From assembly GCF_950101795.1 (NCBI RefSeq), contig NZ_CATNLZ010000001.1, positions 193,382-257,381 on the forward strand: DNA of 64,000 nucleotides. The letters run 5' to 3'. Shown in pieces: positions 18,446 to 32,026 of this stretch. Within the stretch, counting starts at the first letter, position 1. The number at the start of each line of letters is the position of its first letter. The position numbers and the translations under genes were made by a program. Origin of the DNA: Nocardioides sp. T2.26MG-1 (GTDB taxonomy: Bacteria > Actinomycetota > Actinomycetes > Propionibacteriales > Nocardioidaceae). The notes under the pieces are model-generated. The model searched no databases, had not been told where the DNA came from, and worked only from the letters and a program-made list of their open reading frames with translations.

Positions 18446-18446
18446 G

Positions 18447-19703
18447 TCACCAGTGTTCCATCGAGCCGCGGAACACCGCGGCCAGGTCCTCCGGCGTGGG
18501 ACTCTTCGGCGCCGTCGCGAGCAGTCGCTGCTGTTGGAGCGCGCCGCCGACGAGGTCGTCGACGTCGGCCTCGCCGTACCCCACGGCCGCCAGGCCGTTG
18601 GGGATGCCGATGTCGCGCATCAGCGCGGTCAGCACCGTCGGCAGCGCGTCGGGCCCCTCGGGCACCCGCGGGTCCAGCAGCCGCGCGGCGCGGAGGTGCC
18701 GGTCGGGCGCGGCCTCGAACGTGAACCGGAACGCCGCCGGCGCCGTCAGCGAGACCGCCATGCCGTGCGGGACGATCGCCGCGTCGGGGTAGCCCTCGGG
18801 CCGGTAGTCGCGGACCCGGCCGGCGATCGGATAGGCGTTGGCGTGCGGGATGTGCACCCCGGCGTTGCCGAAGCCGAGCCCCGCGAAGGTCGCCGCCATC
18901 GCCATCTGCTCGCGGGCGGCCCGGTCCGACCCGTCGCGCACGGCGGTGCGGAACGCGCCGGCCAGCAGGGACAGTGCCTTCTCCGACCAGAGGTCGGCGA
19001 TCGGGTTGGCCCCGCAGTAGGGCACCCGCTGCTCGGGGCGCTTGGCGTCGAAGTCGGCGTACCACCGGGCGGTGTAGCTCTCGAGCGCGTGGCACACGAT
19101 GTCCATGCCGGCCGCGGCCGTGACGGTCGCCGGCTGGCTGAGCGTCAGGTCCGGGTCGACGACCGCCAGCGTCGGTCGCAGCCGTGGGTGGCTGATCCCC
19201 GTCTTGACCTTGAGCGCGAGCACGTCGAGCACGCAGATCGTGGTGCTCTCCGCGCCGGTGCCGGTCGTCGTGGGGATCGCGACCAGCGGGAGCAGCGGCT
19301 GGGACGGCGCCAGCGCCTTGCCGACGGGCGCGTTGACGTAGTCCATGAGCTCACCGGGGTTGGTGGTGAGCAGGTTGACCGCCTTCGCGGTGTCGATCGA
19401 CGATCCTCCGCCGACCGCCACGATCGCGTCGAACGGCCCGGCGTCGCGGGCGAACGCGATCGCGTCGGCCATCGAGGCGTCGGTCGGCTCGACGTGGACA
19501 CGGTCGTACGTCGTGACCTCGATGCCCCGGGCGGCCACCTGCTCCGCGATGCGGCCCGGGTGCCCGGTGGCCGCGACGCCGGGGTCGGTGACCAGCAGCA
19601 CCCGGCGCGCGCCGTACGACGCCAGGTCGTGCCCGACCTCGCCGGACGCCCCGGGGCCGAACTTGAGGGCGGGCGCGGCGTAGGTGAAGACGGTCTCACT
19701 CAT
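18447..19703 (-). CDS. Iron-containing alcohol dehydrogenase, hydroxyacid-oxoacid transhydrogenase (HOT/ADHFE1) type
   Basis: A 418-aa group III alcohol dehydrogenase. Seen are FTYAAPALKFGPGA at the start, AVGGGSSIDTAKAV (NAD site), PTTTGTGAESTTICV, and metal ligands in AGMDIVCHALESY and NAGVHIPHANAYPIAG with IPHGMAVSLTAPAAF. The last motifs are characteristic of HOT enzymes, which move hydride from 4-hydroxybutyrate to 2-oxoglutarate and so form succinic semialdehyde and D-2-hydroxyglutarate. The ATG at 19703 removes an unlikely basic extension. It is the first gene of the minus-strand run. Confidence 0.9.
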   Translation of the reverse strand: MSETVFTYAAPALKFGPGASGEVGHDLASYGARRVLLVTDPGVAATGHPGRIAEQVAARGIEVTTYDRVHVEPTDASMADAIAFARDAGPFDAIVAVGGGSSIDTAKAVNLLTTNPGELMDYVNAPVGKALAPSQPLLPLVAIPTTTGTGAESTTICVLDVLALKVKTGISHPRLRPTLAVVDPDLTLSQPATVTAAAGMDIVCHALESYTARWYADFDAKRPEQRVPYCGANPIADLWSEKALSLLAGAFRTAVRDGSDRAAREQMAMAATFAGLGFGNAGVHIPHANAYPIAGRVRDYRPEGYPDAAIVPHGMAVSLTAPAAFRFTFEAAPDRHLRAARLLDPRVPEGPDALPTVLTALMRDIGIPNGLAAVGYGEADVDDLVGGALQQQRLLATAPKSPTPEDLAAVFRGSMEHW

Positions 19704-19762
19704 TCGCCCAACATAACGGCCGGACCGGCCCCTACGATTGACCGGCGGAGAGGGGGGCTTCC

Positions 19763-20947
19763 ATGCTGCTGCACGCACGACGTCAGGCACGCTGGATCGC
19801 GCTGGCGGCCGTCGTGGCGCTCCTCGCCGGCACCGGCCTCTACCTCCAGCTCCGCACGCCCACGGCCTCCGGCGTTCTCGCCGACACCGGCGCCGCCCAC
19901 GCCGTGGTCGAGGGCAACCGGATCGTCGACGCCCGCAGCGGCCGCGACTTCGTGCCCCGCGGCGTCAACTGGAGCAGCTTCGAGTACGCCTGTGCCCAGG
20001 GCTGGGGCATGTCCGCTCTCGACAACGTCGTGGCGGGCAGCCCGGCGACGGCCGAGGCCGACGCGATCCGGGCATGGGGGGCGAACACCGTGCGCCTCCC
20101 GCTCAACCAGGACTGCTGGCTCGGCACCCGCGGCGCCCCGGTCAGCGACCAGTACGAGGAGCGGACCGTCGAGGGCTACCGCGCGGACGTGCACCGGTTC
20201 GTCACCGCGCTCAACCGCGCCGGCCTGGTCGTGGTGCTCGACCTGCACAGCCGCAAGCGGATCGGGCAGCCCGAGTTCGGCAACCTCGCGATGCCGGACT
20301 CGGAGTCGATCGCGTTCTGGACCTCGGTGGCCACGGCGTACCGCGACAACCCGTCGGTGATGTTCGATGCGTTCAACGAGCCCTACTCCCGCTACAGCGC
20401 CGGCGGGGACCGGTTCCTGTTCGACCTCACCTGGCAGTGCTGGCGCGACGGCGGTTGCCAGGCGCCCGTCGAGGACGACCAGAGCGCGACCCTCGGCCAG
20501 GTCACCTACCCGGTGCAGGGCTTCGCTGCCGTGGTCAGCACGATCCGCGACACCGGCGCCGCGCAGCCGATCCTGCTCGGCGGGCTCGACTACGCCAACG
20601 ACCTCAGCCACTGGCTGGAGTTCGCGCCCGACGACGACCAGCTGGTCGCGGCCTTCCACTCCTACGACTTCAAGGCGTGCGGCGACCCCGACTGCTGGGA
20701 CGACGTGCTCGGCCCGATCGCCGAGACGGTGCCCCTGCTCACCTCCGAGCTCGGCGCCCGGCACCCGGAGGACGGGTACGTCGGCCGCTACCTCGACTGG
20801 GCCGACGAGCACGGCGTCGGCGCACTGTTCTGGGTCTGGGCCGACCACCCGGCCGACCCGATGGCACTGGTGTCCGACGAGAGCGGCCGCCCCACGCCGT
20901 ACGGACGCCAGGCGCGCAGCTGGCTGACCGACCACCTGCCGAGGTGA
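19763..20947 (+). CDS. Membrane-anchored or secreted GH5-like glycoside hydrolase
   Basis: A 394-aa protein with a signal anchor (WIALAAVVALLAGTGLYL). The TIM-barrel shows FVPRGVNWSSFEY, the GANTVRLPLNQDCW strand, LVVVLDLHS, VMFDAFNEPYS (acid/base Glu206), FHSYDF and LLTSELGA (nucleophile Glu329), the GH5 pattern of endo-beta-glucanases. Four Cys residues may pair outside the cell. It precedes the glycosyltransferase operon, as cellulases accompany cellulose synthases. GGAGAGGGGG precedes the ATG. It diverges from the HOT gene. Confidence 0.87.
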   Translation: MLLHARRQARWIALAAVVALLAGTGLYLQLRTPTASGVLADTGAAHAVVEGNRIVDARSGRDFVPRGVNWSSFEYACAQGWGMSALDNVVAGSPATAEADAIRAWGANTVRLPLNQDCWLGTRGAPVSDQYEERTVEGYRADVHRFVTALNRAGLVVVLDLHSRKRIGQPEFGNLAMPDSESIAFWTSVATAYRDNPSVMFDAFNEPYSRYSAGGDRFLFDLTWQCWRDGGCQAPVEDDQSATLGQVTYPVQGFAAVVSTIRDTGAAQPILLGGLDYANDLSHWLEFAPDDDQLVAAFHSYDFKACGDPDCWDDVLGPIAETVPLLTSELGARHPEDGYVGRYLDWADEHGVGALFWVWADHPADPMALVSDESGRPTPYGRQARSWLTDHLPR

Positions 20948-20982
20948 TCCAGCCCACCCTCCCGGCGGGGATGTACACAGGC

Positions 20983-21041
20983 GGTCCACGTCCGGTCAAC
21001 GATCCGTCCACAGTCCGTCAACGCTGGTCCAGACCGTCACC
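20983..21041 (+). repeat. Three spaced repeats upstream of the polysaccharide operon
   Basis: GGTCCACGTCCGGTCAACG (20983-21001), CGTCCACAGTCCGTCAACG (21005-21023) and a shorter GGTCCAGACCGTCACC (21026-21041) recur every 21-22 bases, about two helical turns. They sit 140-200 bases before the operon's first start codon and look like operator half-sites. No regulator can be named. Confidence 0.4.
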
Positions 21042-21112
21042 AGCGGGCGTGATCGCCAACTAGCGTGGGCATCCGAGGAGTCCACCAATCGGTGAACGGT
21101 ACGCGAGGGGGC

Positions 21113-21158
21113 GTGCCACCATGAGTCCCGCAAGGGCTCGGGACCGGTGGTGGGGCAC
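21113..21158 (+). promoter_or_regulatory. Structured 5' leader hairpin of the polysaccharide operon
   Basis: The outer stem pairs GTGCC/GGCAC and ACCA/TGGT (21113-21121 with 21148-21158, two-base bulge). The inner stem pairs GTCCCG (21125-21130) with CGGGAC (21139-21144). It ends 20 bases before the ATG at 21179, over the region where GGGGGGAA gives the ribosome site. It could be a translational control element. I do not see the c-di-GMP-I riboswitch consensus. Confidence 0.4.
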
Positions 21159-21178
21159 CTGAGCAGGGGGGAAGCATC

Positions 21179-21466
21179 ATGTCGTTGCAGACGGGTCCGT
21201 CGCGTCCGGCAACGAAGTCGGTGGGCGCCGCGGTCGTGGGGCTGCTCCTGACCCTGGCCATCCTCGTCGTCGCCCTGCTGTCCTTCCTGATCGCGCCGCT
21301 CGTGGCGCTCGGCGTCGCCTACCTGGCGTACGCCGTCATGCGGCCGCGCAGCAACCGGCGGCCCCAGCCGGACCAGACTGCGCAACCGGGCGCCGTCGCA
21401 CACGCCGAGTCGCCCGGACGGGCCTCCCATGGCACCGCCGGCTTCGGATCGGGGACCTCAGCGTGA
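21179..21466 (+). CDS. Small membrane protein, first gene of polysaccharide operon
   Basis: A 95-aa protein with a long hydrophobic stretch (AAVVGLLLTLAILVVALLSF plus LIAPLVALGVAYLAYAV) that makes two transmembrane helices, then a polar Pro/Gln/Gly-rich tail. It is not a family I recognise. Its stop overlaps the GTG of the glycosyltransferase gene by 4 bases (GTGA), so it is made together with the synthase and may be an accessory subunit (inference). GGGGGGAA lies upstream of the ATG. Confidence 0.75.
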   Translation: MSLQTGPSRPATKSVGAAVVGLLLTLAILVVALLSFLIAPLVALGVAYLAYAVMRPRSNRRPQPDQTAQPGAVAHAESPGRASHGTAGFGSGTSA

Positions 21467-23610
21467 CCACGACCCAGTCCGGCCAGGCCGGCCTCGAGAC
21501 CCGCCGCCTCCCCAGGCTGACCGACGGGGTCGCCCAGGACCTGCGCCACCTGATCCCGGAGGGCATCTGCCGCACCTTCCGGGTGATGCCGTACGCCTCG
21601 GTCGGGGGCGCCGTCCTCGTGGCGGCGGCCGACGCCGACGACGCGATCACCGCGCAGGTCGTCGCCGAGCGGATCGACCGACCCGTGCAGCTGGTGCGTC
21701 ACACCGTCAACGAGATCGTGGCCGCGATCGACTCCGTGTACCCGCCTCAGGAGACCGAGGTCGAGTCGCCGGACGCACGCCGGGCGCGGATGCAGATGGC
21801 GCAGATGCTCACCCGCAGCGGGCTGATCACCGACGAGCAGCTGCAGCGGGCGATGCTCGAGTACTCCCGCACCGGCGACCCCCTGGGCGACATCCTCGTC
21901 TCCCACGAGGCGATCACCGAGGACGTGCTCGTGGCGGCCCTCTCGGAGATGTACCAGATGCAGCGGGTCGGGCTGACGGACTTCACCCCCGACCTCGAGG
22001 TCGCCCGCCGGCTCCCGGAGCCGCTCGCCCACGCGTTCCAGGCGATCCCGGTCGCCGCGACCGACGACCTGGTGCTGCTCGCCGTCGCCCGCCCACTCGA
22101 CGCCGAGCAGTCGGCCGAGGTCGAGGAGGCACTCGGCGCGCCGTTCCGCCAGCTGCTGGCCAACCGGACCGAGCTCGACCAGCTGATCCAGCGGGTGCAC
22201 GCCCGCCACTACGCCGAGGTCTCGACCCGGCTGCTCATGGAGACCCGGCCCGAGGAGTCGGCCCACGTGGTCATCTCGGGCGGACAGAAGGCCGGCCTGG
22301 TGCTGTCCGCCGTCGTCATCGTCTTCTGCGCCGTGATCTGGCCCATGAACACCGCGATCGCCCTGGTCGCAGCCTGCAGCCTGCTCTACCTGGTGGTGTC
22401 CTTCTACAAGTTCCGGCTCACCCTGCGGGCACTGGGCACCCACCTCGAGACCGACGTCACCGACGAGGAGATCGCGGCGATCGACGAGCGGCGCCTGCCG
22501 ATGTACACGATCCTGGTCCCGCTCTACAAGGAGGCGGGCATCGTCCCGCGCCTGGTCCGCGACATCAACGCCCTCGACTACCCGCGCACCCGGCTCGACG
22601 TGAAGCTGCTGTGCGAGGAGGACGACGAGGAGACGGTCCAGAAGATCCGCGAGATGCAGCTGCCGCCGCACTTCCACCTGGTGGTCGTCCCCGACAGCAA
22701 GCCGAAGACCAAGCCCAAGGCCTGCAACTACGGGCTGCAGCTCGCGTTCGGCTCCTACTGCGTGATCTTCGACGCCGAGGACCGCCCGGACCCCGACCAG
22801 CTGAAGAAGGCCGTGATCGCGTTCAGCCGCGTCGCGAGCAACGTGGTGTGCGTCCAGGCCAAGCTCAACCACTTCAACCAGGACCAGAACATGCTCACGG
22901 CCTGGTTCGCCAACGAGTACTCCATGCACTTCGAGCTCGTGCTCCCTGCCATGGGCGCGGCCGAGTCGCCGATCCCGCTGGGCGGCACCTCCAACCACTT
23001 CGTGACCTCCAAGCTGCGCGAGCTCGGCGCCTGGGACCCGTTCAACGTGACCGAGGACGCCGACCTCGGCATCCGGCTGCACCGCGAGGGCTACCGGACG
23101 GCGATGATCGACTCGACCACGCTCGAGGAGGCGAACTCCCAGGTCCCCAACTGGATCCGGCAGCGCAGCCGCTGGAACAAGGGCTACATCCAGACCTGGC
23201 TGGTCCACATGCGCAACCCGCTCCGGCTCCTCTCCCAGACCGGCCTGAGCGGCTTCCTCAGCTTCAACCTCACGATGGGCAGCGCGTTCGTGCTGCTGCT
23301 CAACCCGATCTTCTGGGCGCTGACCACGTTGTACGTCTTCACCCAGGCCGGGTTCATCGAGCAGCTGTTCCCGGGCATCATCTTCTACGCCGCCAGCGCG
23401 CTGCTGTTCGTCGGCAACTTCGTGTTCGTCTACCTCAACGTGGCCGGCAGCCTGCACCGCGGCGAGTTCGGCCTCACCCGCACCGCGCTGCTCTCGCCCT
23501 TCTACTGGGGCCTGATGAGCTGGGCGGCCTGGAAGGGCTTCATCCAGCTCTTCACCAACCCGTTCTACTGGGAGAAGACCGAGCACGGCCTGGACGAGGG
23601 ACACTCCTGA
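21463..23610 (+). CDS. Processive GT2 glycosyltransferase fused to MshEN/GspE-N-like domains
   Basis: A 715-aa membrane synthase. Residues about 15-265 hold two GspE-N/MshEN-like modules; the second has LGDILVSHEAITEDVLVAAL (from residue 141), the pattern that binds c-di-GMP in MshE. Two transmembrane helices follow (about 275-320). The GT2 domain has VPLYKEAGIVPRL, DAED at 437-440, TED at 530-532 and QRSRW at 567-571, the D,D,D,QxxRW set of cellulose-synthase-like processive enzymes. Four or so C-terminal helices form the export channel. It probably polymerises and extrudes a beta-linked glycan under c-di-GMP control; polymer and ligand are inferred. Confidence 0.92.
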   Translation: MTTTQSGQAGLETRRLPRLTDGVAQDLRHLIPEGICRTFRVMPYASVGGAVLVAAADADDAITAQVVAERIDRPVQLVRHTVNEIVAAIDSVYPPQETEVESPDARRARMQMAQMLTRSGLITDEQLQRAMLEYSRTGDPLGDILVSHEAITEDVLVAALSEMYQMQRVGLTDFTPDLEVARRLPEPLAHAFQAIPVAATDDLVLLAVARPLDAEQSAEVEEALGAPFRQLLANRTELDQLIQRVHARHYAEVSTRLLMETRPEESAHVVISGGQKAGLVLSAVVIVFCAVIWPMNTAIALVAACSLLYLVVSFYKFRLTLRALGTHLETDVTDEEIAAIDERRLPMYTILVPLYKEAGIVPRLVRDINALDYPRTRLDVKLLCEEDDEETVQKIREMQLPPHFHLVVVPDSKPKTKPKACNYGLQLAFGSYCVIFDAEDRPDPDQLKKAVIAFSRVASNVVCVQAKLNHFNQDQNMLTAWFANEYSMHFELVLPAMGAAESPIPLGGTSNHFVTSKLRELGAWDPFNVTEDADLGIRLHREGYRTAMIDSTTLEEANSQVPNWIRQRSRWNKGYIQTWLVHMRNPLRLLSQTGLSGFLSFNLTMGSAFVLLLNPIFWALTTLYVFTQAGFIEQLFPGIIFYAASALLFVGNFVFVYLNVAGSLHRGEFGLTRTALLSPFYWGLMSWAAWKGFIQLFTNPFYWEKTEHGLDEGHS

Positions 23611-25283
23611 TGAGCGCCCCGGTGAGCACGGTCTCCAACGTCCACACCAAGGACCGCCGCAGCGGCGTCGTCCAGCTCGTCGGTCGCCGGCCCAACGACG
23701 TCGAGCGCCGGTGGTGGGAGAGCGCCCTGGTGTTCGCGTTCTTCACGGTCGCCTACACCTGGTTCGGCTACTGGGTCGTGGTCGACCTGCACGTGGTCGG
23801 CTTCGAGACCCTCGACCGCCTGAACCGTGCCCTGATGGTGTGGCACAACGACCCGGCCAAGCTGTCCGCGATCGGCTTCGACTACCCGCCGCTCGCGACC
23901 CTGCTCATCGCACCGCTCGCGGTGCTCCGCGGCCTGGTGACCTCGCTCGCGGTCGTGCCGCTGGCCTCGGCGATCTTCGCCGCGTTCACCATGGTCGCGT
24001 TCAACACGATGATGCGCCGGGCGCTGATCGCCGGCCCCCTGCGCTACGCGGTCCTTCTCGCACTCGGTGCCAACCCGATGGTGCTGCTGTACGCCACCAC
24101 CGGCACCCGCCACTTCGTCTGGATCGCGCTGGTCGTCACCGCACTGGGCGCCCTGTTCGCCTGGTACATCACCGCCGACGTCCGGTTCGTGATGCTCGCG
24201 GGCATCTCGTTCTCGATCGCCGCCCTCGCGGGCTACACCAGCCTCACGTTCTTCGTGCTCAGCGCGATCATGATCGGCGCCATCCTGGCCCGGCTCGGCG
24301 CCGACGGGACCGAGGTCGAGGGCACCGTGGTCGGCTTCGCCTCGCCGACCGTGTACGTCGTCGCCCTCTGGACGGTCTTCAACTTCATCCTGCTGCTCCG
24401 GCCGTTCGCCTGGATCACCCGATCGAGCGACGCCGCCGCGTCGGGCGGGCTCGAGACGTTCTCGGCGGTCGAGCTGCTCCGCGCCACCGGCGAGCTGGTG
24501 CTGTACGGCGCGCCGATCGCGATCGTCGTGCTCCCCGCGCTCGTCTTCGCCGGCGTCGCCCGCGGCAACCCGTTCGCGTTGTGGCTCGGCGTGATGCTCG
24601 GCGTCGCGATCATGCTGCCGTCGGCGGCGGTCGTGCTGCGGCTCACGGACTCACCGATGCTGATGCGCAACGCGGTGCCGATCCTGATGATCAGCATGAT
24701 CGGGGCGATCTGGCTGGCCCGCTCCGCCGACGAGGGCAGCACCCTGGTCGCCGCGTTGATCGTCGTGGCACTGGTGATCAGCATCCCCTGGACGATCCAG
24801 GCGATGAAGACCTACCGCTACCAGAACCTCGAGGCACCGTTCGCGGCCGCGATCACCACCGGCGAGTCCCAGGAGGGGGCCGAGACCCTCAGCCGCGAGA
24901 AGGTCGGCATCTTCTCCGAGCAGGCGATGGCCGAGTACATCTCCAACAACGTCTCACGGGACAACTCCATCCTCACCGACAACGCCCAGACCTACGCGGT
25001 CATGATGCTGACCGGCCACCCCGAGTACTTCTTCGACCGGATCGACCAGAGCGACGGCCCGTGGAAGCTCGCCGCACGCAACCCCGCGGCGTACGACGTC
25101 GACTACCTGCTGATGTCGGCCGCCGACAACGGCGACCTGCTCACCGCGCTGTACCCGGACGCCGCCATCGGCTCCGACCCCATGCTGCAGGTCGTCTTCC
25201 GCACGCCGCGCTACGTCCTGGTCAGCGTGCCCGCCGGCTACCAGCCCGGTGGGGTGACCACGGGCCAGTTCGGGGAGTCATGA
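23610..25283 (+). CDS. Polytopic membrane protein, GT-C-like
   Basis: A 557-aa protein with about ten hydrophobic segments between residues 30 and 390 and a soluble C-terminal domain (about 400-557). An early acidic loop (GFDYPPLATLLIAPLAVL) and the general topology resemble GT-C glycosyltransferases that use lipid-linked sugars, but no catalytic pair is certain. The C-terminal domain (AMAEYISNNVSRDNSILTDN) resembles the periplasmic part of such enzymes. Its ATG shares one base with the synthase stop. It may modify or translocate the glycan. Confidence 0.8.
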   Translation: MSAPVSTVSNVHTKDRRSGVVQLVGRRPNDVERRWWESALVFAFFTVAYTWFGYWVVVDLHVVGFETLDRLNRALMVWHNDPAKLSAIGFDYPPLATLLIAPLAVLRGLVTSLAVVPLASAIFAAFTMVAFNTMMRRALIAGPLRYAVLLALGANPMVLLYATTGTRHFVWIALVVTALGALFAWYITADVRFVMLAGISFSIAALAGYTSLTFFVLSAIMIGAILARLGADGTEVEGTVVGFASPTVYVVALWTVFNFILLLRPFAWITRSSDAAASGGLETFSAVELLRATGELVLYGAPIAIVVLPALVFAGVARGNPFALWLGVMLGVAIMLPSAAVVLRLTDSPMLMRNAVPILMISMIGAIWLARSADEGSTLVAALIVVALVISIPWTIQAMKTYRYQNLEAPFAAAITTGESQEGAETLSREKVGIFSEQAMAEYISNNVSRDNSILTDNAQTYAVMMLTGHPEYFFDRIDQSDGPWKLAARNPAAYDVDYLLMSAADNGDLLTALYPDAAIGSDPMLQVVFRTPRYVLVSVPAGYQPGGVTTGQFGES

Positions 25284-26230
25284 TGGTCGACGACAAGCCG
25301 CGCATCGCGCCGCCCCCGTCGGTCGACGACGTGCTCTCCGCCCTGACGGACCAGTCCCGCATCGGTCAGGTCGACTTCACCGCCGCGCTGGCGACCGAGC
25401 CCGTCGAGACCCGGGCCACCCGCCTGACCGGCAAGACCGCCGGCCCGGGCGACCTCCGGACCGCACTGCGCCGGGTGCCCGAGCCGACGCCGGCACCGAT
25501 CCTCGAGCCCGATGCGACCGCGACACCGGTCGAGCCCGTGACCGAGCCCGTGACCGCACCCGTGTCCCGGCCAGAGCCGGAGCCGGTCGCCGAGACCGCG
25601 CCCGAGCCCGCACCAGGACCTGCGCCCGAGCCCGAGCCCCAGCCCGCGACCGCGCCCGCGACCGCGCCGACGACCAGGGCCCGGCGGCCGCGCAGCGCGC
25701 GCAAGCCCCTGACCGTGGTCGAGGAGCTCGCCCCAGAACCCGAGCCAGAGCCGGCGACCGAGGGCGAGCCCGAGGCCGAGGCCGAGGCCGAGGCTGAGTC
25801 CTGGCCGGAGCCGGACCCGGTCGCCGAGGCCGAGCCCGTGGCCGGGCGTGAGCCCGTGGTCCCGCCGGTGGACCTCGCCCGCACCGTCGAGGAGATCGCG
25901 CAGGGCGTGATCAGCCGCATGCACGCGGCCGAGCAGGCCACGCTGCGGCATCTGGAGGCCATGGACCTCGAGGCGACCCGCCGCTACGAGCTCGTCACCG
26001 CCCAGGCCGAGCTGGACGCCGAGCTGATCCGTCTCCAGTCGCGCCGCGAGGCACACGCGATCATCACCGCCGCTCGGATGCGCGCCGGGGAGCTCGACGA
26101 CCTCGACGACGACCCCGGCGACCACGGCCACCGGCTGGCGGTCCTCAGCGATGCGATCTCCAGGGTCGCCGACACCACCGAGTCCTCGCTCACGCGACCG
26201 CGGACCAGAGAGACCGGGCCCTCCCGATGA
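25280..26230 (+). CDS. Pro/Glu/Ala-rich protein with C-terminal coiled coil
   Basis: A 316-aa cytoplasmic-looking protein without a signal or membrane helix. Residues 1-70 are mixed; about 75-200 are a low-complexity run of PEPEP and EAEAE repeats; about 205-290 are a helical coiled coil rich in Glu, Ala, Arg and Gln. The architecture suggests a scaffold or spacer. Two ATGs in a row (25280 and 25283) are possible starts; the first overlaps the upstream stop as ATGA. I do not recognise a family. Its repeated composition is unlike its neighbours. Confidence 0.75.
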   Translation: MMVDDKPRIAPPPSVDDVLSALTDQSRIGQVDFTAALATEPVETRATRLTGKTAGPGDLRTALRRVPEPTPAPILEPDATATPVEPVTEPVTAPVSRPEPEPVAETAPEPAPGPAPEPEPQPATAPATAPTTRARRPRSARKPLTVVEELAPEPEPEPATEGEPEAEAEAEAESWPEPDPVAEAEPVAGREPVVPPVDLARTVEEIAQGVISRMHAAEQATLRHLEAMDLEATRRYELVTAQAELDAELIRLQSRREAHAIITAARMRAGELDDLDDDPGDHGHRLAVLSDAISRVADTTESSLTRPRTRETGPSR

Positions 26231-27393
26231 CCACACGACGTCAGCACCGCACCCAATGCGGCGTCGCCGTCGTCGCGGCCGCCGCGGTCCTGCTCGCCGG
26301 CTGCGCGGGCGGGGACTCCGGCAAGGACGCGTCGGAGGACGTGGTCGTGACCGTGGACCCGACCCAGTCACCCGGTGTGGTCGTGCCCGAACACCGGTTC
26401 TTCAACGACACCTCACCCTGGAACCGGCGCATCGACACCGCCCGCGTCGACCCCGACTCCGACCGGATGATCCAGTACGCCCACGAGCGCCTGGGCGTGA
26501 TCGAGGGTCCGGGCTCCACCCAGGTCCAGACCCGGGACATGGTCGACGCGGGCCTGTACATCAACACCCTGCGCTGGACGGTCCCGGTCGTCGCCGGGGG
26601 TCGGCCGACCTCGCTGGTCTGCCGCCAGCTGGTCTGCGGCGACGGCGAGAACACCACCGTCCTCAACATCCCCGACGACGTCGACCCCGATCCCCGCTAC
26701 GACGGGTGGTACACCGTCTTCGACACCTCGGCGTCGGTCGCCTACGACCTGTGGCGGGCCCGCCGCGAGGCCGACGACACCATCTCCTACAACTACATGC
26801 GCAAGTGGGACCTCAACGGCCCCGGCTACAGCGAGCCCCAGACCGAGGGTGCCCGTGGCTCCGGTCTGCCGCTGTTCGCCGGGCTGATCCGGGCCGGCGA
26901 GCTGGAGTCCGGCGAGATCCAGCACGCGCTCGCGATCAGCGTGCCCGGCCCCGCCGCGGGCGTGTTCGTCCAGCCGGCGTCGTCGACCGACGGCAACGGC
27001 CGACCGCGGTCGCTGCCCGAAGGTGCCCGGATCAGGCTGAAGCGCGACGTCGTGCTCCCGCCGCCGGTCGACCCGCGGACCGGCAAGCCGATCAAGCTCA
27101 GCAAGCAGCAGCAGCGCCTGGCCGACGCGATCGTGGCCTGCCTGCGCACGTACGGCGCCATCGTGGTCGACCGCGCGGCCGTCCCGACCCTCTACGCGCA
27201 GCGCGACGTGACGGACGGGCTGATCCGCGGCAACGAGCTCCAGGGACTCACCCTCGACGACTTCGAGGTGCTGCCGTTGGGCCAGCTCTACCGCTACCCG
27301 CCGGAGGAGGACGACGGGACCGTCGTCGACCCGAGTGCCGACCCGAGCGCCTCGCCGACGAGCTCACCGACCGAAGGGGGCGCCGTCCAGTGA
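26227..27393 (+). CDS. Lipoprotein of unknown function
   Basis: A 388-aa exported lipoprotein: signal helix then LLAGC lipobox (Cys about 26). The mature part has no family I can name with confidence; FNDTSPWNRRI, YDGWYTVFDTSAS, SYNYMRKWDLNGPGYSE, ARGSGLPLFAGLIR and HALAISVPG recall carbohydrate-active or adhesion beta-sandwich proteins of secreted glycan systems. It ends in a Pro/Ser/Thr-rich tail. It is joined by ATGA overlap to the coiled-coil gene and by GTGA to the next. A role in binding or tailoring the exported glycan is inference. Confidence 0.78.
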   Translation: MTTRRQHRTQCGVAVVAAAAVLLAGCAGGDSGKDASEDVVVTVDPTQSPGVVVPEHRFFNDTSPWNRRIDTARVDPDSDRMIQYAHERLGVIEGPGSTQVQTRDMVDAGLYINTLRWTVPVVAGGRPTSLVCRQLVCGDGENTTVLNIPDDVDPDPRYDGWYTVFDTSASVAYDLWRARREADDTISYNYMRKWDLNGPGYSEPQTEGARGSGLPLFAGLIRAGELESGEIQHALAISVPGPAAGVFVQPASSTDGNGRPRSLPEGARIRLKRDVVLPPPVDPRTGKPIKLSKQQQRLADAIVACLRTYGAIVVDRAAVPTLYAQRDVTDGLIRGNELQGLTLDDFEVLPLGQLYRYPPEEDDGTVVDPSADPSASPTSSPTEGGAVQ

Positions 27394-28844
27394 CCCGCAC
27401 CCGCTCGCTGCTGGCCCGGCCGCTGGCGGCCTCGCTGGCCGTCGCCGCGGTCTCGCTCGGCCTGCTCACCGCCTGCTCGGACCCGTCCCAGGAGGCGACC
27501 GACACGGTCAGCCAGGACCAGGCCGACGCGTTCCGCGAGAACAAGCTGCGCGAGCAGGACATCGCCAAGGCGTACGCCGCACTCCCGACGCGCCCCACGG
27601 GCGTCGTCGACGTCGACGGCTCGACCAGCGGGTCGATGACCCCGACCGAGATCGGCCGCTACGAGACCACGACCGACGCCGCGCAGATCAACGTCGCCGA
27701 CAACGGCGAGGACCAGGCCTTCCAGGAGCTGTGCGCGGGGCGGATCGACCTCGTCGACTCGGCGCGTCCGATGAGCCGCGCGGAGTGGGAGGCGTGCCAG
27801 GCCGTCGGGCTGGACGTGGTGCAGTTCCAGGTCGCCGCCGAGGCGATCGTGGTCGCGATCAAGTCCGAGACCGACGTCGGGGCCGACTGCCTCACGGTCG
27901 ACCAGGTGCGCGACCTCTACCGCGCCGGCTCGCCGCTGACGAACTGGAGCCAGGAGCCGCTCGGCCTCGACGACGTGCCGCTCAAGGTCGGCGGGCCCAA
28001 CCCCGACAACAACGGCTTCGGGTTCTTCGGGCGTTACGTGCTCGGCGCACCCGAGCCCTCCCAGGTCGACCTCCGCTCCGACTACTACCTCGCCGAGAAC
28101 GACGAGCAGGCTCGCCAGTTCGTCGTCGGCCAGCGCAACCTCGGGCTGCGGGCAGCCCGCTTCGACGACGTCAGCCGCCGGCGCGCCCAGGTCAACCAGG
28201 CCCTCCAGGACGCCCGCATGGAGATGGCGGCCGCCCGCACCGAGCTCTCGATCGCGCTGGCCGAGCGCGCCAAGGGGATCCGTGACGAGCGGCCCCTGGC
28301 CGACAAGCGGAAGGACCAGCGTCGCGTGGATGCGGCGTACACGCGCCGCTCGGCCGCCCGGGTGCGGCTCAACGCCGCCGAGCTGCGCTACCGCGAGGTC
28401 AACACGCTCTACCAGAGCACCGACCACGCCCGCCGCCTGTACGAGTCCTACCGCGGCCACGTCGCGTACTTCCGGTACAGCTACTACGAGCTGTTCGAGG
28501 ACCAGCTGCGGCCCTTCGAGATCACGATGCCCGACGGGCAGCGCAACTGCATCTTCCCGAGCCAGCGCACGATCACCAGCGGCGAGTACCCGTTGGCCCG
28601 GCAGCTGCTGATCACGACGACCACCCGGTCGCTGGTCCGCAACGAGGTGCGCGACTTCCTCGGTCACTACATCGACAACGCCCAGAACGACGCCGACACG
28701 GCCCGCCTCGTGGCACTGCCCAACGAGACGGTCCGGATCCAGCAGGCGTGGCTGAACGGCGACCAGGCCCCGCTGCTCTACGTCCCGGACGACAACGCGA
28801 CCTCGCCCTCCCAGCCGGTGCCGAGCGAGAAGCCGGCGAGATGA
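27390..28844 (+). CDS. PstS-like binding lipoprotein with coiled-coil insertion
   Basis: A 484-aa lipoprotein (GTG start; lipobox LLTAC, Cys29). Residues about 65-255 look like the phosphate-binding type of periplasmic binding protein: DGSTSGSMTP (anion loop), FQELCAGRIDLVDSARPMS, VAAEAIVVAIKSETDV and VGGPNPDNNGFGFFGRYVL. Residues about 258-350 are a long charged coiled coil, after which the second lobe continues (ISGEYPLARQLL-like segment at about 395-410). A coiled coil inside this fold is unusual. It overlaps its neighbours by 4 bases. It may act as an envelope scaffold rather than a phosphate importer, since no Pst permease lies nearby. Confidence 0.82.
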   Translation: MTRTRSLLARPLAASLAVAAVSLGLLTACSDPSQEATDTVSQDQADAFRENKLREQDIAKAYAALPTRPTGVVDVDGSTSGSMTPTEIGRYETTTDAAQINVADNGEDQAFQELCAGRIDLVDSARPMSRAEWEACQAVGLDVVQFQVAAEAIVVAIKSETDVGADCLTVDQVRDLYRAGSPLTNWSQEPLGLDDVPLKVGGPNPDNNGFGFFGRYVLGAPEPSQVDLRSDYYLAENDEQARQFVVGQRNLGLRAARFDDVSRRRAQVNQALQDARMEMAAARTELSIALAERAKGIRDERPLADKRKDQRRVDAAYTRRSAARVRLNAAELRYREVNTLYQSTDHARRLYESYRGHVAYFRYSYYELFEDQLRPFEITMPDGQRNCIFPSQRTITSGEYPLARQLLITTTTRSLVRNEVRDFLGHYIDNAQNDADTARLVALPNETVRIQQAWLNGDQAPLLYVPDDNATSPSQPVPSEKPAR

Positions 28845-29869
28845 CCACTTTGGCCACCCGGCTGGTCGCGTTCGCATCGCCCCTGCTGCTCCTGATCCCC
28901 GCGCTCGCCGTCGCGCCGACGTACGCCGGCGCGTCCGCCACGAGCGCTCGGCAGGTGCAGCAGACCAAGCGGATCGTGGTCAGGTGGCACGGGGACCAGA
29001 AGCGACCGGTCTACCAGAAGGCGACCAACGTGCCCGGGATCGGCCAGGTCGAGCTGGTCTGCCGGCCCAAGGCCACGATGCTCCGGATCCGGGCCAACGA
29101 GCGCAACGCCGAGACACAGATGTGGCTGGCCAAGTTCGAGACCAAGGACGGCACCGACCGGGTCGCGGTGAAGAACGTTCGCATCTACCGCTACTCGACG
29201 GCTGCGGACGACGGGACCGGCGGGACCGGCTACCAGGCGCACGAAGGCCTCAACCAGGGTGCGCACGGCATCGAGGACTTCGCGAAGGGCTCGGCGTACG
29301 GCGTGATCAGCCAGCGTCCCGGCCGCAACCGGTCCGGGGGCGGGACGCTCGCGCTGCCGGTGACCTCGTTCAAGCTGACCTGGTGGTGGGAGCGGTTCGC
29401 CTACCCCGGCAGCCAGTACTGCAGGATGACGCTCGCCCTCAGGACCGACACCGAGCAACAGTTCGGGCTCAGCTGGCACGGTGACGCCGACGCAGCCGCG
29501 CACCGGACCAGCACCGCGACGATCCCGGGGTTCGGGCAGGCCGAGCTCGTGTGCGAGACCGGCCGGGGAGGTGAGCAGAGTGTGGCGCTGCGCCCCGACG
29601 ACCCCGACGCCTTCATGGACTACGAGTACATCCAGGGCGAGGGGCGGACCGACGATCCCTCCCACATCACCCACTACGACGACCTCGACCTCGACCCCAC
29701 CACCGGTCTCCTGGGGCCGGTCGACCTGCCACGCAACGGCATGATGCGCATCTGGTGGTCGGTCGGTGGGGTGAAGCAGGCCTGGGTCCTCTCCTCCTAT
29801 CTCGTCACCAACAACACCTCGAAGCCCGAGCTCAACGTGTGCGAGGTCGCGGCCACGCCACTGCCCTGA
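28841..29869 (+). CDS. Secreted protein with duplicated domain
   Basis: A 342-aa protein with a signal peptide (SPLLLLIPALAVAPTYAGA). Two copies of one domain are visible: VVRWHGDQKRPV...VPGIGQVELVC at about residues 45-78 and LSWHGDADAAAH...IPGFGQAELVC at about 208-240, each followed by a beta-rich stretch with aromatic residues and a late Cys (CRM and CEV). The pattern suggests tandem beta-sandwich modules that could bind glycan. It is the last gene of the operon and ends 24 bases before the converging Nudix gene. Family not recognised. Confidence 0.8.
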   Translation: MTTLATRLVAFASPLLLLIPALAVAPTYAGASATSARQVQQTKRIVVRWHGDQKRPVYQKATNVPGIGQVELVCRPKATMLRIRANERNAETQMWLAKFETKDGTDRVAVKNVRIYRYSTAADDGTGGTGYQAHEGLNQGAHGIEDFAKGSAYGVISQRPGRNRSGGGTLALPVTSFKLTWWWERFAYPGSQYCRMTLALRTDTEQQFGLSWHGDADAAAHRTSTATIPGFGQAELVCETGRGGEQSVALRPDDPDAFMDYEYIQGEGRTDDPSHITHYDDLDLDPTTGLLGPVDLPRNGMMRIWWSVGGVKQAWVLSSYLVTNNTSKPELNVCEVAATPLP

Positions 29870-29893
29870 TCGAGGGCCCGACCGACGCTCCGG

Positions 29894-30769
29894 TCAGCGC
29901 TCCCGGAGCGCCTCGCGGACCAGCTCGAGCACCGGCACCTCGCCGCTCAGGATCCGGTCGCGGGACACCCACGCGACCTCCGCCGAGGTCCCACCCTGCT
30001 CGGCCAGGCGAGGATCGGCGTCGGCCGCGACGTCGGCGGCGAAGACGAGCGCCACGGAGTGGAAGTCCTCGTAGCGCCCCGACGGCGCGGTGCCGCTGAA
30101 GTGGTCGTCGTGGACCGCGACGAGCTCCCCGACCTGGCACTCGACGCCGGCCTCCTCGCGGACCTCGCGGACCACGGCGGTCCGGGGCGCCTCGCCGTGG
30201 TCGACGCCACCTCCCGGCAGGGTCCAGGAGCCCGTGTGGAAGCCGCGGTCGGAGATCCGCACGAGCAGCACGGCGTCGTCGCGCAGGATCAGCGCGTAGG
30301 CACCGAGGCGCTGATGGCGGAACGGGCGGTGGTCGGCGACCGCCTCGAGCACCATCGGCGCCACCGGCACGGTCCCGTCCAGGACGTCCTCGGTCGGCTT
30401 CCAGGCGGCCTCGGCCGTGGAGCCACCCACCTCGATCACCCGGGGCTCGGGAGCGTCGATCGGCACCCACCCGTCGTAGACGATCCGCAGCGCGTGGGCA
30501 TCGACCCGGCGCCCCTCGCGCCAGACCCCCGGCAGGTGGGCGGAGTAGACGCGCGCCGTCTCCCCGACGACCGCGTGCAGCCCGGTCTCCTCGTAGATCT
30601 CCCGGATCACCGCGTCGCGCGGGTCCTCACCGTGGTCGAGGCCGCCGCCGGGCAGCGTCCACAGCTCCTCGGAGGTGATGCTCCGGGAGAGCCGGCTCAG
30701 CAGGATCCGGCCTTCGCGGATGATCACCGCGTACGCCGCCACCCGCTGCCGCTTGGGGAGTCCGACCAC
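29894..30769 (-). CDS. Protein with two tandem Nudix hydrolase domains
   Basis: A 291-aa protein. Each half has a complete Nudix box: GGGLDHGEDPRDAVIREIYEE (about residues 41-61) and GGGVDHGEAPRTAVVREVREE (about 185-205), with the REXXEE metal ligands intact in both. Each half begins with the usual YAVII or YALIL strand. The duplication suggests one polypeptide that acts as the usual Nudix dimer, or two substrates. The GTG at 30769 abuts GGAGGA closely; a GTG at 30742 is an alternative start. It probably follows the reductase gene in one transcript order across an 9-base gap. Confidence 0.9.
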   Translation of the reverse strand: MVGLPKRQRVAAYAVIIREGRILLSRLSRSITSEELWTLPGGGLDHGEDPRDAVIREIYEETGLHAVVGETARVYSAHLPGVWREGRRVDAHALRIVYDGWVPIDAPEPRVIEVGGSTAEAAWKPTEDVLDGTVPVAPMVLEAVADHRPFRHQRLGAYALILRDDAVLLVRISDRGFHTGSWTLPGGGVDHGEAPRTAVVREVREEAGVECQVGELVAVHDDHFSGTAPSGRYEDFHSVALVFAADVAADADPRLAEQGGTSAEVAWVSRDRILSGEVPVLELVREALRER

Positions 30770-30778
30770 TCCTCCCCC

Positions 30779-32026
30779 TCAGCCGAACGGCGGGCGGTGG
30801 TCCAGGGCGATCGAGCGGCGCCCGGCCCAGCGCCACACCCGCGCGGCCCGGTCGCGGTCCTCGTCGGTCACGAGGTTGCCCATCCACCGCAGCGCCAGCG
30901 TCATCAGCCAGTCCGAGCGCATCCCCGCCGGACCCAGCGTGGGCAGCAGGCGCGGGACGGTCACCAGGCCGGCCAGCCGGCGGGCGATCGAGAACGACTC
31001 GCCGTAGTGCTCACGCAGCAGCGCCGGCCAGACAGTCTCGAGGCCCGGCGCGTCCGCGGGCCGGTCGGCCAGCAGCTCCGCGACCAGACGACCCGTCTCG
31101 AGGCCGTAGTCGATGCCCTCGCCGTTGAGCGGGTTCACGCACGCGGCGGCGTCGCCGATCAGCGCCCAGTTGGGCCCGGCGACGTGGGACACCGCGCCGC
31201 CCATGGGCAACAGCGCCGAGGTGGGCATCCGCAGCTCCCCGGAGAGCTGGAACTCCTCACGACGCTCGTCGGCGTAGTGGGCCATGAGCGGCTTGATCGC
31301 GATGTCCGCGGGCCGCTTTGCGGTCGCCAGGGTGCCGACGCCGACGTTCACCTCACCGGTGCCGAGCGGGAAGATCCAGCCGTAGCCGGAGAGGACCTTG
31401 CCGTCCTGGCCGCGCAGCTCGAGGTGGGAGCTGATCCAGGGATCGTCGGACCGCTCGGAGGTGATGTAGGAGCGGCCGGCGACGCCGTAGACGGTCTCGC
31501 GGTGCCACTCGCGGCCGAGGACCTTGCCCAGCGGGCTCCGGACGCCGTCGGCGACGACGAGCCGGCGGCAGCCGATCTCCACCTCACCCGACGCGGTGCG
31601 GAAGACGACGCCGACGACCCGTCCTGCCGACATCCGTACGTCGACGGCGCGCGCCCCGTCGACCGCGACCGCTCCCGCCTTGATCGCCGTCGTGCGCAGG
31701 TGGTCGTCGAGCTCGGTGCGGGCCACGGCGGAGCCCCAGTCGGGCAGCGTCCCTCCGGGCCACGGCAGGTGCAGGGTCTGGCCGAAGCCGTGGGCGCGGA
31801 GCCCCTGGTTGACCGTGTGGGCGCGGAGCCAGTCCTCGAGGCCGAGCCGCTGCAGCTCACCGATCGCGCGCGGCGTGAGTCCGTCGCCGCAGGTCTTGTC
31901 ACGAGGGAAGACCGCCGCGTCGGCGAGCACGACGTCGAGTCCGGCTCGCGCCGCCCACGCGGCCGCCGCCGACCCTGCGGGGCCGGCGCCCACGACGAGG
32001 ACGTCGGTCTGCGCGGGTGTGCTCAC
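30779..32026 (-). CDS. Geranylgeranyl reductase family flavoprotein (menaquinone reductase type)
   Basis: A 415-aa FAD enzyme that saturates isoprenoid double bonds. Seen are VVVGAGPAGSAAAAWAARAG (FAD loop), KTCGDGLTPRA, YGWIFPLGTGEVNVGVG, LIGDAAACVNPLNGEGIDYGLETGR and the C-terminal helices. The GDGLTPRA and GYGWIFP motifs are those of the MenJ-type enzymes that hydrogenate the menaquinone side chain in actinobacteria, so that role is likely. It is followed at 9 bases by the tandem Nudix gene. The ATG at 32026 fits the FAD loop position. Confidence 0.9.
   Translation of the reverse strand: MSTPAQTDVLVVGAGPAGSAAAAWAARAGLDVVLADAAVFPRDKTCGDGLTPRAIGELQRLGLEDWLRAHTVNQGLRAHGFGQTLHLPWPGGTLPDWGSAVARTELDDHLRTTAIKAGAVAVDGARAVDVRMSAGRVVGVVFRTASGEVEIGCRRLVVADGVRSPLGKVLGREWHRETVYGVAGRSYITSERSDDPWISSHLELRGQDGKVLSGYGWIFPLGTGEVNVGVGTLATAKRPADIAIKPLMAHYADERREEFQLSGELRMPTSALLPMGGAVSHVAGPNWALIGDAAACVNPLNGEGIDYGLETGRLVAELLADRPADAPGLETVWPALLREHYGESFSIARRLAGLVTVPRLLPTLGPAGMRSDWLMTLALRWMGNLVTDEDRDRAARVWRWAGRRSIALDHRPPFG

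Follow-up and report, generated by a model that had tools for sequence, protein, structure and literature searches.

A candidate surface-glycan operon of Nocardioides whose synthase carries an MshEN tandem that may have lost its cyclic di-GMP site

Eight plus-strand open reading frames (ORFs; g1–g8) lie at positions 19763–29869 of a 64,000-nt stretch of DNA from Nocardioides sp. T2.26MG-1 (the window), the closest named relatives of which are Nocardioides. The third, g3, is a predicted family 2 glycosyltransferase (GT2) with MshEN modules at its N-terminus, which raises the question of whether cyclic di-GMP (c-di-GMP) switches on a glycan synthase through a domain within its own chain, as a preliminary description of this DNA had proposed. 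The answer that we favour, with some reservation, is that the operon encodes a surface-glycan machine in which MshEN lost its c-di-GMP site once and was kept with another role. The proposed switch is not supported: five of the six c-di-GMP contact positions are replaced both in the window and in 18 same-genus orthologues, and ten of 18 other same-genus carriers of the operon lack a GGDEF match.

The synthase and its MshEN contact positions

The features of g3 are as follows.

21463–23610, plus strand: g3, GT2 synthase with an N-terminal MshEN tandem, 715 amino acids (Pfam, NCBIfam and motifs)
21523–21756, plus strand: g3 residues 21–98, first MshEN_C-like module (PF05157 match at 23–98)
21769–21951, plus strand: g3 residues 103–163, MshEN_N part (contacts R9Q, G11A, Q32Y, R38P and Q61M; G40 kept)
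22498–23202, plus strand: g3 residues 346–580, GT2 catalytic core (PF13641 at 346–573; FDAED at 436, TED at 530 and QRSRW at 567)

The GT2 part is recognised by profiles and contains the signatures of a processive enzyme (FDAED, TED and QRSRW). A profile search for MshEN returned PF05157 twice (residues 23–98 and 164–245) together with the NCBIfam c-di-GMP motif model NF053729 over its cut-off, and MshEN is also recognised by PDB sequences; both the synthase motifs and the N-terminal modules named earlier are borne out. The first module (21–98, its limits in the identity and selection analyses) is without a recognised c-di-GMP motif half. The CelA model TIGR03030 matches residues 301–697 with 53.2 bits and does not reach its cut-off of 699.1, and the CelA and PgaC profiles cover both the glycosyltransferase and the transmembrane (TM) part. 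The NfrB model NF008411 matches residues 106–261 only (58.3 bits; cut-off of 1170 not reached). PilZ was not found in g3 by Pfam at E 1 or in the window's own genome at E 0.001. The suggestion of sensing built into the synthase instead of a PilZ domain stands for the architecture, with MshEN in the chain and no PilZ match, and is not supported for the ligand, five of the six c-di-GMP contacts being replaced.

Published facts are taken here from PMC8669469, PMC8669472, PMC11731258, PMC12002112, PMC12943098 and PMC5013675, the last of which gives RLG...G...L...L..Q as the consensus of the 24-residue motif. Contact positions are numbered after VcMshE. In the window, R9, G11, Q32, R38 and Q61 are replaced by Q, A, Y, P and M, respectively, and G40 is kept (a score of one of six); L10 and L29 are both Met. 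The same five positions are replaced in 18 of 18 same-genus orthologues examined. Among the 37 named loci with both g3 and g4, MshEN could be scored in 34 (with Arg or Lys accepted at positions 9 and 38), of which 31 score 0 or 1; the remaining three score 5 (L106 and L111) and 4 (L107). The published relaxed MshEN motif, scanned with Cys added to the hydrophobic letter set, has no copy in the window g3 or in any of the 31 eroded loci. Copies are likewise absent from L107, L111, L114, L118 and L180–L183; one is present in L106, L170 and L171 and two in L168, L172, L173, L174, L177 and L178.

Characterised proteins give these replacements different weights. A change of G11 abolishes binding by MshE, and the equivalent glycine change in NfrB (G491L) abolishes infection by phage N4. 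GSPII-B of Thermus PilF binds at 6 nM without the Arg, so that loss of Arg alone means little and loss of Gln and Gly weighs more. GSPII-A of the same protein, a measured non-binder, carries changes at both Gln positions, at one Arg and one Gly and at two Leu, and is reported to bind measurably only when three positions are restored and other blocking features are removed. The contact pattern of the window g3 resembles that of GSPII-A. Judged by its residues, c-di-GMP binding by the window g3 is unlikely, although NF053729 is over cut-off and the hydrophobic contact positions are kept.

Phylogeny of the site and supply of c-di-GMP

All 12 scored operon loci from one other class retain four to six of the six contact positions: six in L170, L172–L174, L177 and L178, five in L168 and L171, and four in L180–L183 under the stricter rule (Arg or Lys), by which the outgroup row L113 scores three. 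Aeromicrobium stalagmiti (L107; four of six) belongs to the window's own family if L107 is genome G171. In a tree of the glycosyltransferase part only (g3 residues 300–715, from which the trait columns are absent), the eroded rows and the window form one clade of 17 rows (bootstrap 100, SH-aLRT 99) nested among intact rows. The root was placed on four relatives with four to five of six (by the rule accepting Arg, Lys or Leu, which was also used for scoring the wide tree), and one change suffices to explain the loss. A wider tree, long branches included, recovers the same eroded clade and needs three changes; it omits L092, L122, L125, L126, L175, rows of fewer than 350 residues, 14 Nocardioides near-duplicates and six others (L070, L116, L117, L119, L123 and L124), and the glycosyltransferase-part tree omits 15 more rows that are long-branch, unscored or non-operon. 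With the root on the outgroup, the change reads as loss of an intact site. In the ancestor the machine was probably gated by c-di-GMP, an input that the window lineage would then have lost, and the residues of deep-branching relatives of the operon fit c-di-GMP control.

The eroded domain is under strong purifying selection. When the window is compared with eight close orthologues, the ratio of nonsynonymous to synonymous substitution rates (dN/dS) is 0.019–0.133 for the MshEN_N bundle and 0.070–0.237 for the GT core, with the bundle lower in six of the eight comparisons and slightly higher in two. Mean identity to the window over 18 orthologues is 83% for the bundle (107–163) and 90% for the GT core, and the stretch RTGDPLGDILV is nearly invariant in the g3 alignment (A1). 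Such purifying selection argues that the domain is not decaying and serves some role.

The distribution of GGDEF domains was compared with that of the operon. In ten of the 18 other same-genus carriers, all ten being 99–100% complete genomes, no GGDEF was matched at E 0.001; 1 to 3 matches occur in eight of the 18 and 12 in G171, and carriers in the other class have 3 to 74 (12 searched of 17 found). In this genus a full-length PilB-type ATPase (E < 1e-120) is present in eight of nine GGDEF-positive carriers, the window's own genome included, and in none of ten GGDEF-negative carriers; the exception is G319. In those eight genomes a GGDEF is found no more than about 10 kb from the ATPase gene, so that here the c-di-GMP enzymes follow the pili rather than the glycan operon. 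In the window's own genome the GGDEF genes are approximately 9 kb from the PilB-type gene and on a different contig from the glycan operon. The locus there (contig C12, about 341678–362000; L128 and L129) resembles a type IV pilus locus, with a PilB-type ATPase, pilin-like ORFs and GGDEF/EAL.

A GGDEF gene adjoins the operon in six of the 15 loci that score four to six (L106, L107, L111 and L172–L174) and in none of the 31 that score 0 or 1. We do not rely on this count, since at least five of the 31 eroded loci lie on short contigs (no longer than 14 kb), a single arrangement is common to L106 and L172–L174, and G1006 (apparently Svornostia) has 74 GGDEF matches, so that proximity could be chance. 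L109 (GGDEF nearby, with N in its MshEN) is excluded from the counts; L169, L175, L176 and L179 have no scorable MshEN, and L122 and L125 hold the end of g3 only. The non-operon loci L127, L073, L062 and L066 have a GGDEF nearby and score 3 to 5.

The gene set and its accessory proteins

The other genes of the locus are as follows.

19763–20947, plus strand: g1, GH5 glycosidase, anchored or secreted, 394 amino acids (PF00150, E 2.9e-27; TM-like stretch 9–30)
21179–21466, plus strand: g2, small membrane protein, 95 amino acids (TM-like stretch 10–55)
23610–25283, plus strand: g4, membrane protein with a predicted GT-C fold, 557 amino acids
25280–26230, plus strand: g5, soluble protein rich in Pro and Glu, conserved in its C-terminal third, about 197–310 (no TM stretch; tblastn)
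26227–27393, plus strand: g6, lipoprotein without a recognised family, 388 amino acids (lipobox-like cysteine; no clear fold match)
27390–28844, plus strand: g7, lipoprotein with a charged insertion and a substrate-binding domain like that of PstS (PF12849, TIGR02136 and alignment A4)
28841–29869, plus strand: g8, secreted, internally repeated protein of no family, 342 amino acids (alignment A5)

All eight reading frames are intact, with zero internal stops. From g2–g3 to g7–g8 (21179–29869) consecutive genes overlap by 4, 1, 4, 4, 4 and 4 nt; the g4–g5 overlap drops to 1 nt if g5 starts at the second of two adjacent ATGs. A gap of 231 nt separates the g1 stop from the g2 start, and g1 is therefore a member of the neighbourhood that is not translationally coupled. 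An Rfam search of 18000–31000 (E up to 1) found nothing and hence no known c-di-GMP or cyclic di-AMP riboswitch in that interval, and the consensus of 32 g1–g2 spacers (12 rows listed) has little besides a G-rich site ahead of g2.

The gene set is conserved together; of the outcomes named earlier as refuting the proposal, neither a missing MshEN match nor a scattered gene set was observed. Among 51 named loci found via the g3 alignment, g3, g4, g6 and g7 occur in order in 34, a recurrence beyond coincidence; three have g3 and g4 without g6 and g7, two of these lying at the end of a contig, and the synthase stands alone in 14, some on short contigs. Within the 34 core loci g1 is present in 25 and g2, by sequence search, in 28. 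Small membrane-protein-like ORFs at the g2 position were also recognised by eye in L106 (9699–9914), L107 (9724–9987) and L111; those in L106 and L107 were missed by the search, and conservation of g2 is probably wider than counted. A comparison of 40 loci showed gene order to be kept in the 19 with a close g3 orthologue (the search missed GH5 in L040 only, g5 in a single locus and g2 in three); in the other 21, L053 has g3, g4, g5 and g7 only, L065 has g3 and a weak g4, and 19 have g3 only. In Nocardioides rubriscoriae (L097) g2–g5 are present and g6, g7 and g8 were not found within 10 kb past g3, so that this operon is perhaps partial.

Full-length g6 (E < 1e-100) was found in 20 of 391 genomes of the order, exactly those with g3 at 60–100% identity over nearly its whole length, and g6 is a good marker of the glycan system; a further 18 of the 391 give weak matches. 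Beyond the order, four of 395 other genomes of the phylum have g6, and counting these four the carriers in one other class number 17 of 299 genomes. Named deep-branch members are the Solirubrobacterales metagenome-assembled genomes L106 and L109 and Svornostia abyssi L111. In the last, the synthase (L111:9730–11863) is apparently split, the first MshEN module being a 90-residue ORF in another frame that overlaps the remainder. A second GT2 synthase family, 35–38% identical, occurs in genomes of the same genus and order (L062–L064 and L066–L070; L069 is G134:C6:543500–562700). Its members are mostly MshEN-bearing and lack g4–g8 in the DNA fetched around them, and L062 and L066 are near a GGDEF gene. 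Many Actinomycetota genomes (e.g. L142, L144 and L145) give scattered, low-scoring matches to a domain that resembles g6 over its C-terminal two thirds.

No Pfam or NCBIfam family reached its cut-off in g2, g4, g5, g6 or g8, and Pfam scans of every member of alignments A2, A3 and A5 (g6, g4 and g8) returned only chance-level names. In g1, FNEP (204) and SELG (328) were identified by motif reading, and their Glu residues are likely to be catalytic. A model of g4 built on 30 sequences (the window and its relatives; pLDDT 82.2) resembles Pmt4 (VIA Z 21.6, 352 aligned residues, 4.2 Å) and ArnT (VIA Z 21.0, 410 aligned residues, 4.3 Å). It reaches Z of 8 or more to 57 of 996 structure chains, the best 50 of which are presumably GT-C-type enzymes or subunits; the g4 profile has zero matches to PDB sequences at E 1. 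The predicted fold upholds the earlier GT-C-like label and indicates that g4 has a GT-C transmembrane fold, from which use of a lipid-linked sugar donor may be suggested.

Neither a TM segment nor a signal was seen in g5, and most tblastn matches sit in its C-terminal third. Both g6 and g7 have lipobox-like cysteines (by eye, from the sequence and alignments A2 and A4). A model of g6 from 32 sequences (pLDDT 78.5) gave no Foldseek match at E < 0.001 (best E 0.64), and the g6 profile has a single match to PDB sequences (E 0.017). As to an MltA-like lytic transglycosylase fold of g6, the similarities to LtgG (Z 3.8, 177 aligned residues, 5.7 Å) and MltA (Z 3.3) are too weak for use. PF12849 (PBP domain) matches g7 above the Pfam cut-off (E 1.3e-15), and the PstS model TIGR02136 matches it below cut-off (E 3.7e-25, 88.7 bits against 206.6). 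The repeat of g8 (WHGD...PG.G...L.C) was seen by eye in the sequence and in A5; its profile has no match to PDB sequences.

Readings of the locus and relation to known systems

BcsA-type GT2 enzymes polymerise and extrude their chain, and g3 would likewise polymerise a probably β-linked chain that passes through the membrane in the manner of BcsA. The GT-C protein g4 would probably attach lipid-carried sugars outside, the lipoproteins g6 and g7 and the secreted g8 may handle or anchor the chain at the surface, and the GH5 enzyme g1 may trim it. The MshEN tandem would descend from a c-di-GMP switch that seems intact in the other-class relatives; its site would have been lost once in the window lineage and the domain retained under strong selection, now most likely as a structural or allosteric module that answers to another input (a protein partner or other ligand). 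The natural candidate for a partner is g5, which has no TM segment or signal and is translationally coupled. The gene set, its domains and conservation, the predicted g4 fold, the replaced contact residues and the many carriers with no GGDEF match are observations; the glycan, its export, the roles given to the individual proteins and the lost ability to bind c-di-GMP are what we infer.

Several observations weigh against this reading. NF053729 matches the window g3 at residues 114–162 with 48.9 bits (cut-off 38) and also matches 20 of 20 rows of A1, the window included, at E 0.001, and all six hydrophobic contact positions of the window g3 are still hydrophobic. Published work reports that changes of R9, D12 or Q32 cost MshE at most fivefold in binding, that additional structural features also prevent binding by GSPII-A, so that residues alone are not decisive, and that NfrB binds c-di-GMP with a Kd of 1.0 µM. 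Its authors consider the NfrB domain fully conserved; by our reading its motif I is imperfect, yet it binds. Domains of c-di-GMP enzymes are present in the window's own genome (GGDEF twice, EAL once). The MshEN of its PilB is likewise degenerate (no relaxed-motif copy), so that degeneration alone fails to separate g3 from a GGDEF-adjacent protein. Loss of the site being a single event, its association with missing GGDEF is not statistically independent. The polymer, its substrate and its export are themselves inferred.

An altered pocket might instead bind another small molecule (for example a sugar nucleotide or a different dinucleotide) while continuing to gate the synthase. That the former binding bundle is under very strong purifying selection, that RTGDPLGDILV is nearly invariant and that the hydrophobic positions are retained all speak for such an exchange; docking to a protein would account for this selection equally well, since in Thermus the N-terminal half of PilF binds PilM. 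We regard an exchange of ligand as rather doubtful.

ArnT/PMT-type GT-C enzymes decorate existing acceptors. Given the fold match of g4 to these enzymes and the fact that Pfam recognises no channel or export protein among g1–g8, the operon could modify an existing wall or membrane glycan with side groups through its GT2 and GT-C enzymes, rather than synthesise an exopolysaccharide. However, TED, QRSRW and the flanking TM segments are features of processive synthases, and the CelA and PgaC profiles span both parts of g3; modification of an existing glycan is thus unlikely.

That the window tandem still binds c-di-GMP and switches on glycan synthesis like NfrB, as the profile matches, hydrophobic pocket, own-genome GGDEF and EAL domains, lack of a PilZ match and NfrB precedent would allow, is distinctly improbable, since the two Gln and two Arg contacts are all replaced, together with one key Gly out of two, in a pattern near that of GSPII-A, no relaxed-motif copy remains, the operon persists in genomes without a GGDEF match, and the own GGDEF genes sit by a pilus-type ATPase gene on another contig.

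A GT2 with a c-di-GMP-binding MshEN is already known. NfrB of Escherichia coli, which with NfrA and YbcH is the synthase of the phage N4 receptor glycan, is a GT2 (DxD, TED and QxxRW) fused to MshEN, with sensing inside the synthase chain as in the architecture of g3. Its MshEN is C-terminal and retains relaxed motif II, whereas that of g3 is N-terminal, in tandem and without a copy; in addition, Pfam recognises no outer-membrane partner among g1–g8. VcMshE and GSPII-A to GSPII-C of Thermus PilF share the domain with g3, which with five of six contacts replaced is most like GSPII-A. ArnT and PMT are alike to g4 in predicted fold (Z about 21 over 350–420 residues), with no sequence family match. 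BcsA has the GT2 core and TM segments in common with g3, but g3 is far under the CelA cut-off and has no PilZ match. A glycosidase gene lies nearby in the window, and bcs operons also have one. MshEN–glycosyltransferase fusions were noted in general terms in 2016 (PMC5013675). The literature searched, outside which most subscription journals fall, yielded no description of this gene set, of its occurrence in two classes or of the site's loss; the earlier impression that this exact set is uncharacterised agrees with this.

We consider it possible, if still tentative, that in a single ancestor within the lineage of Nocardioides MshEN gave up c-di-GMP and came to respond to a protein or to another ligand. 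If so, living relatives of one operon would span c-di-GMP-controlled and c-di-GMP-free states. A curated model (NF053729) labels such proteins as c-di-GMP-binding, yet genomes in which no GGDEF was matched retain the domain. Across its carriers the operon offers a natural gradation of sites, some intact and others lost, along which the meaning of each contact residue may be tested, and it points to an undescribed actinobacterial surface-glycan machine, several proteins of which, g4, g6 and g8 among them, belong to no known sequence family.

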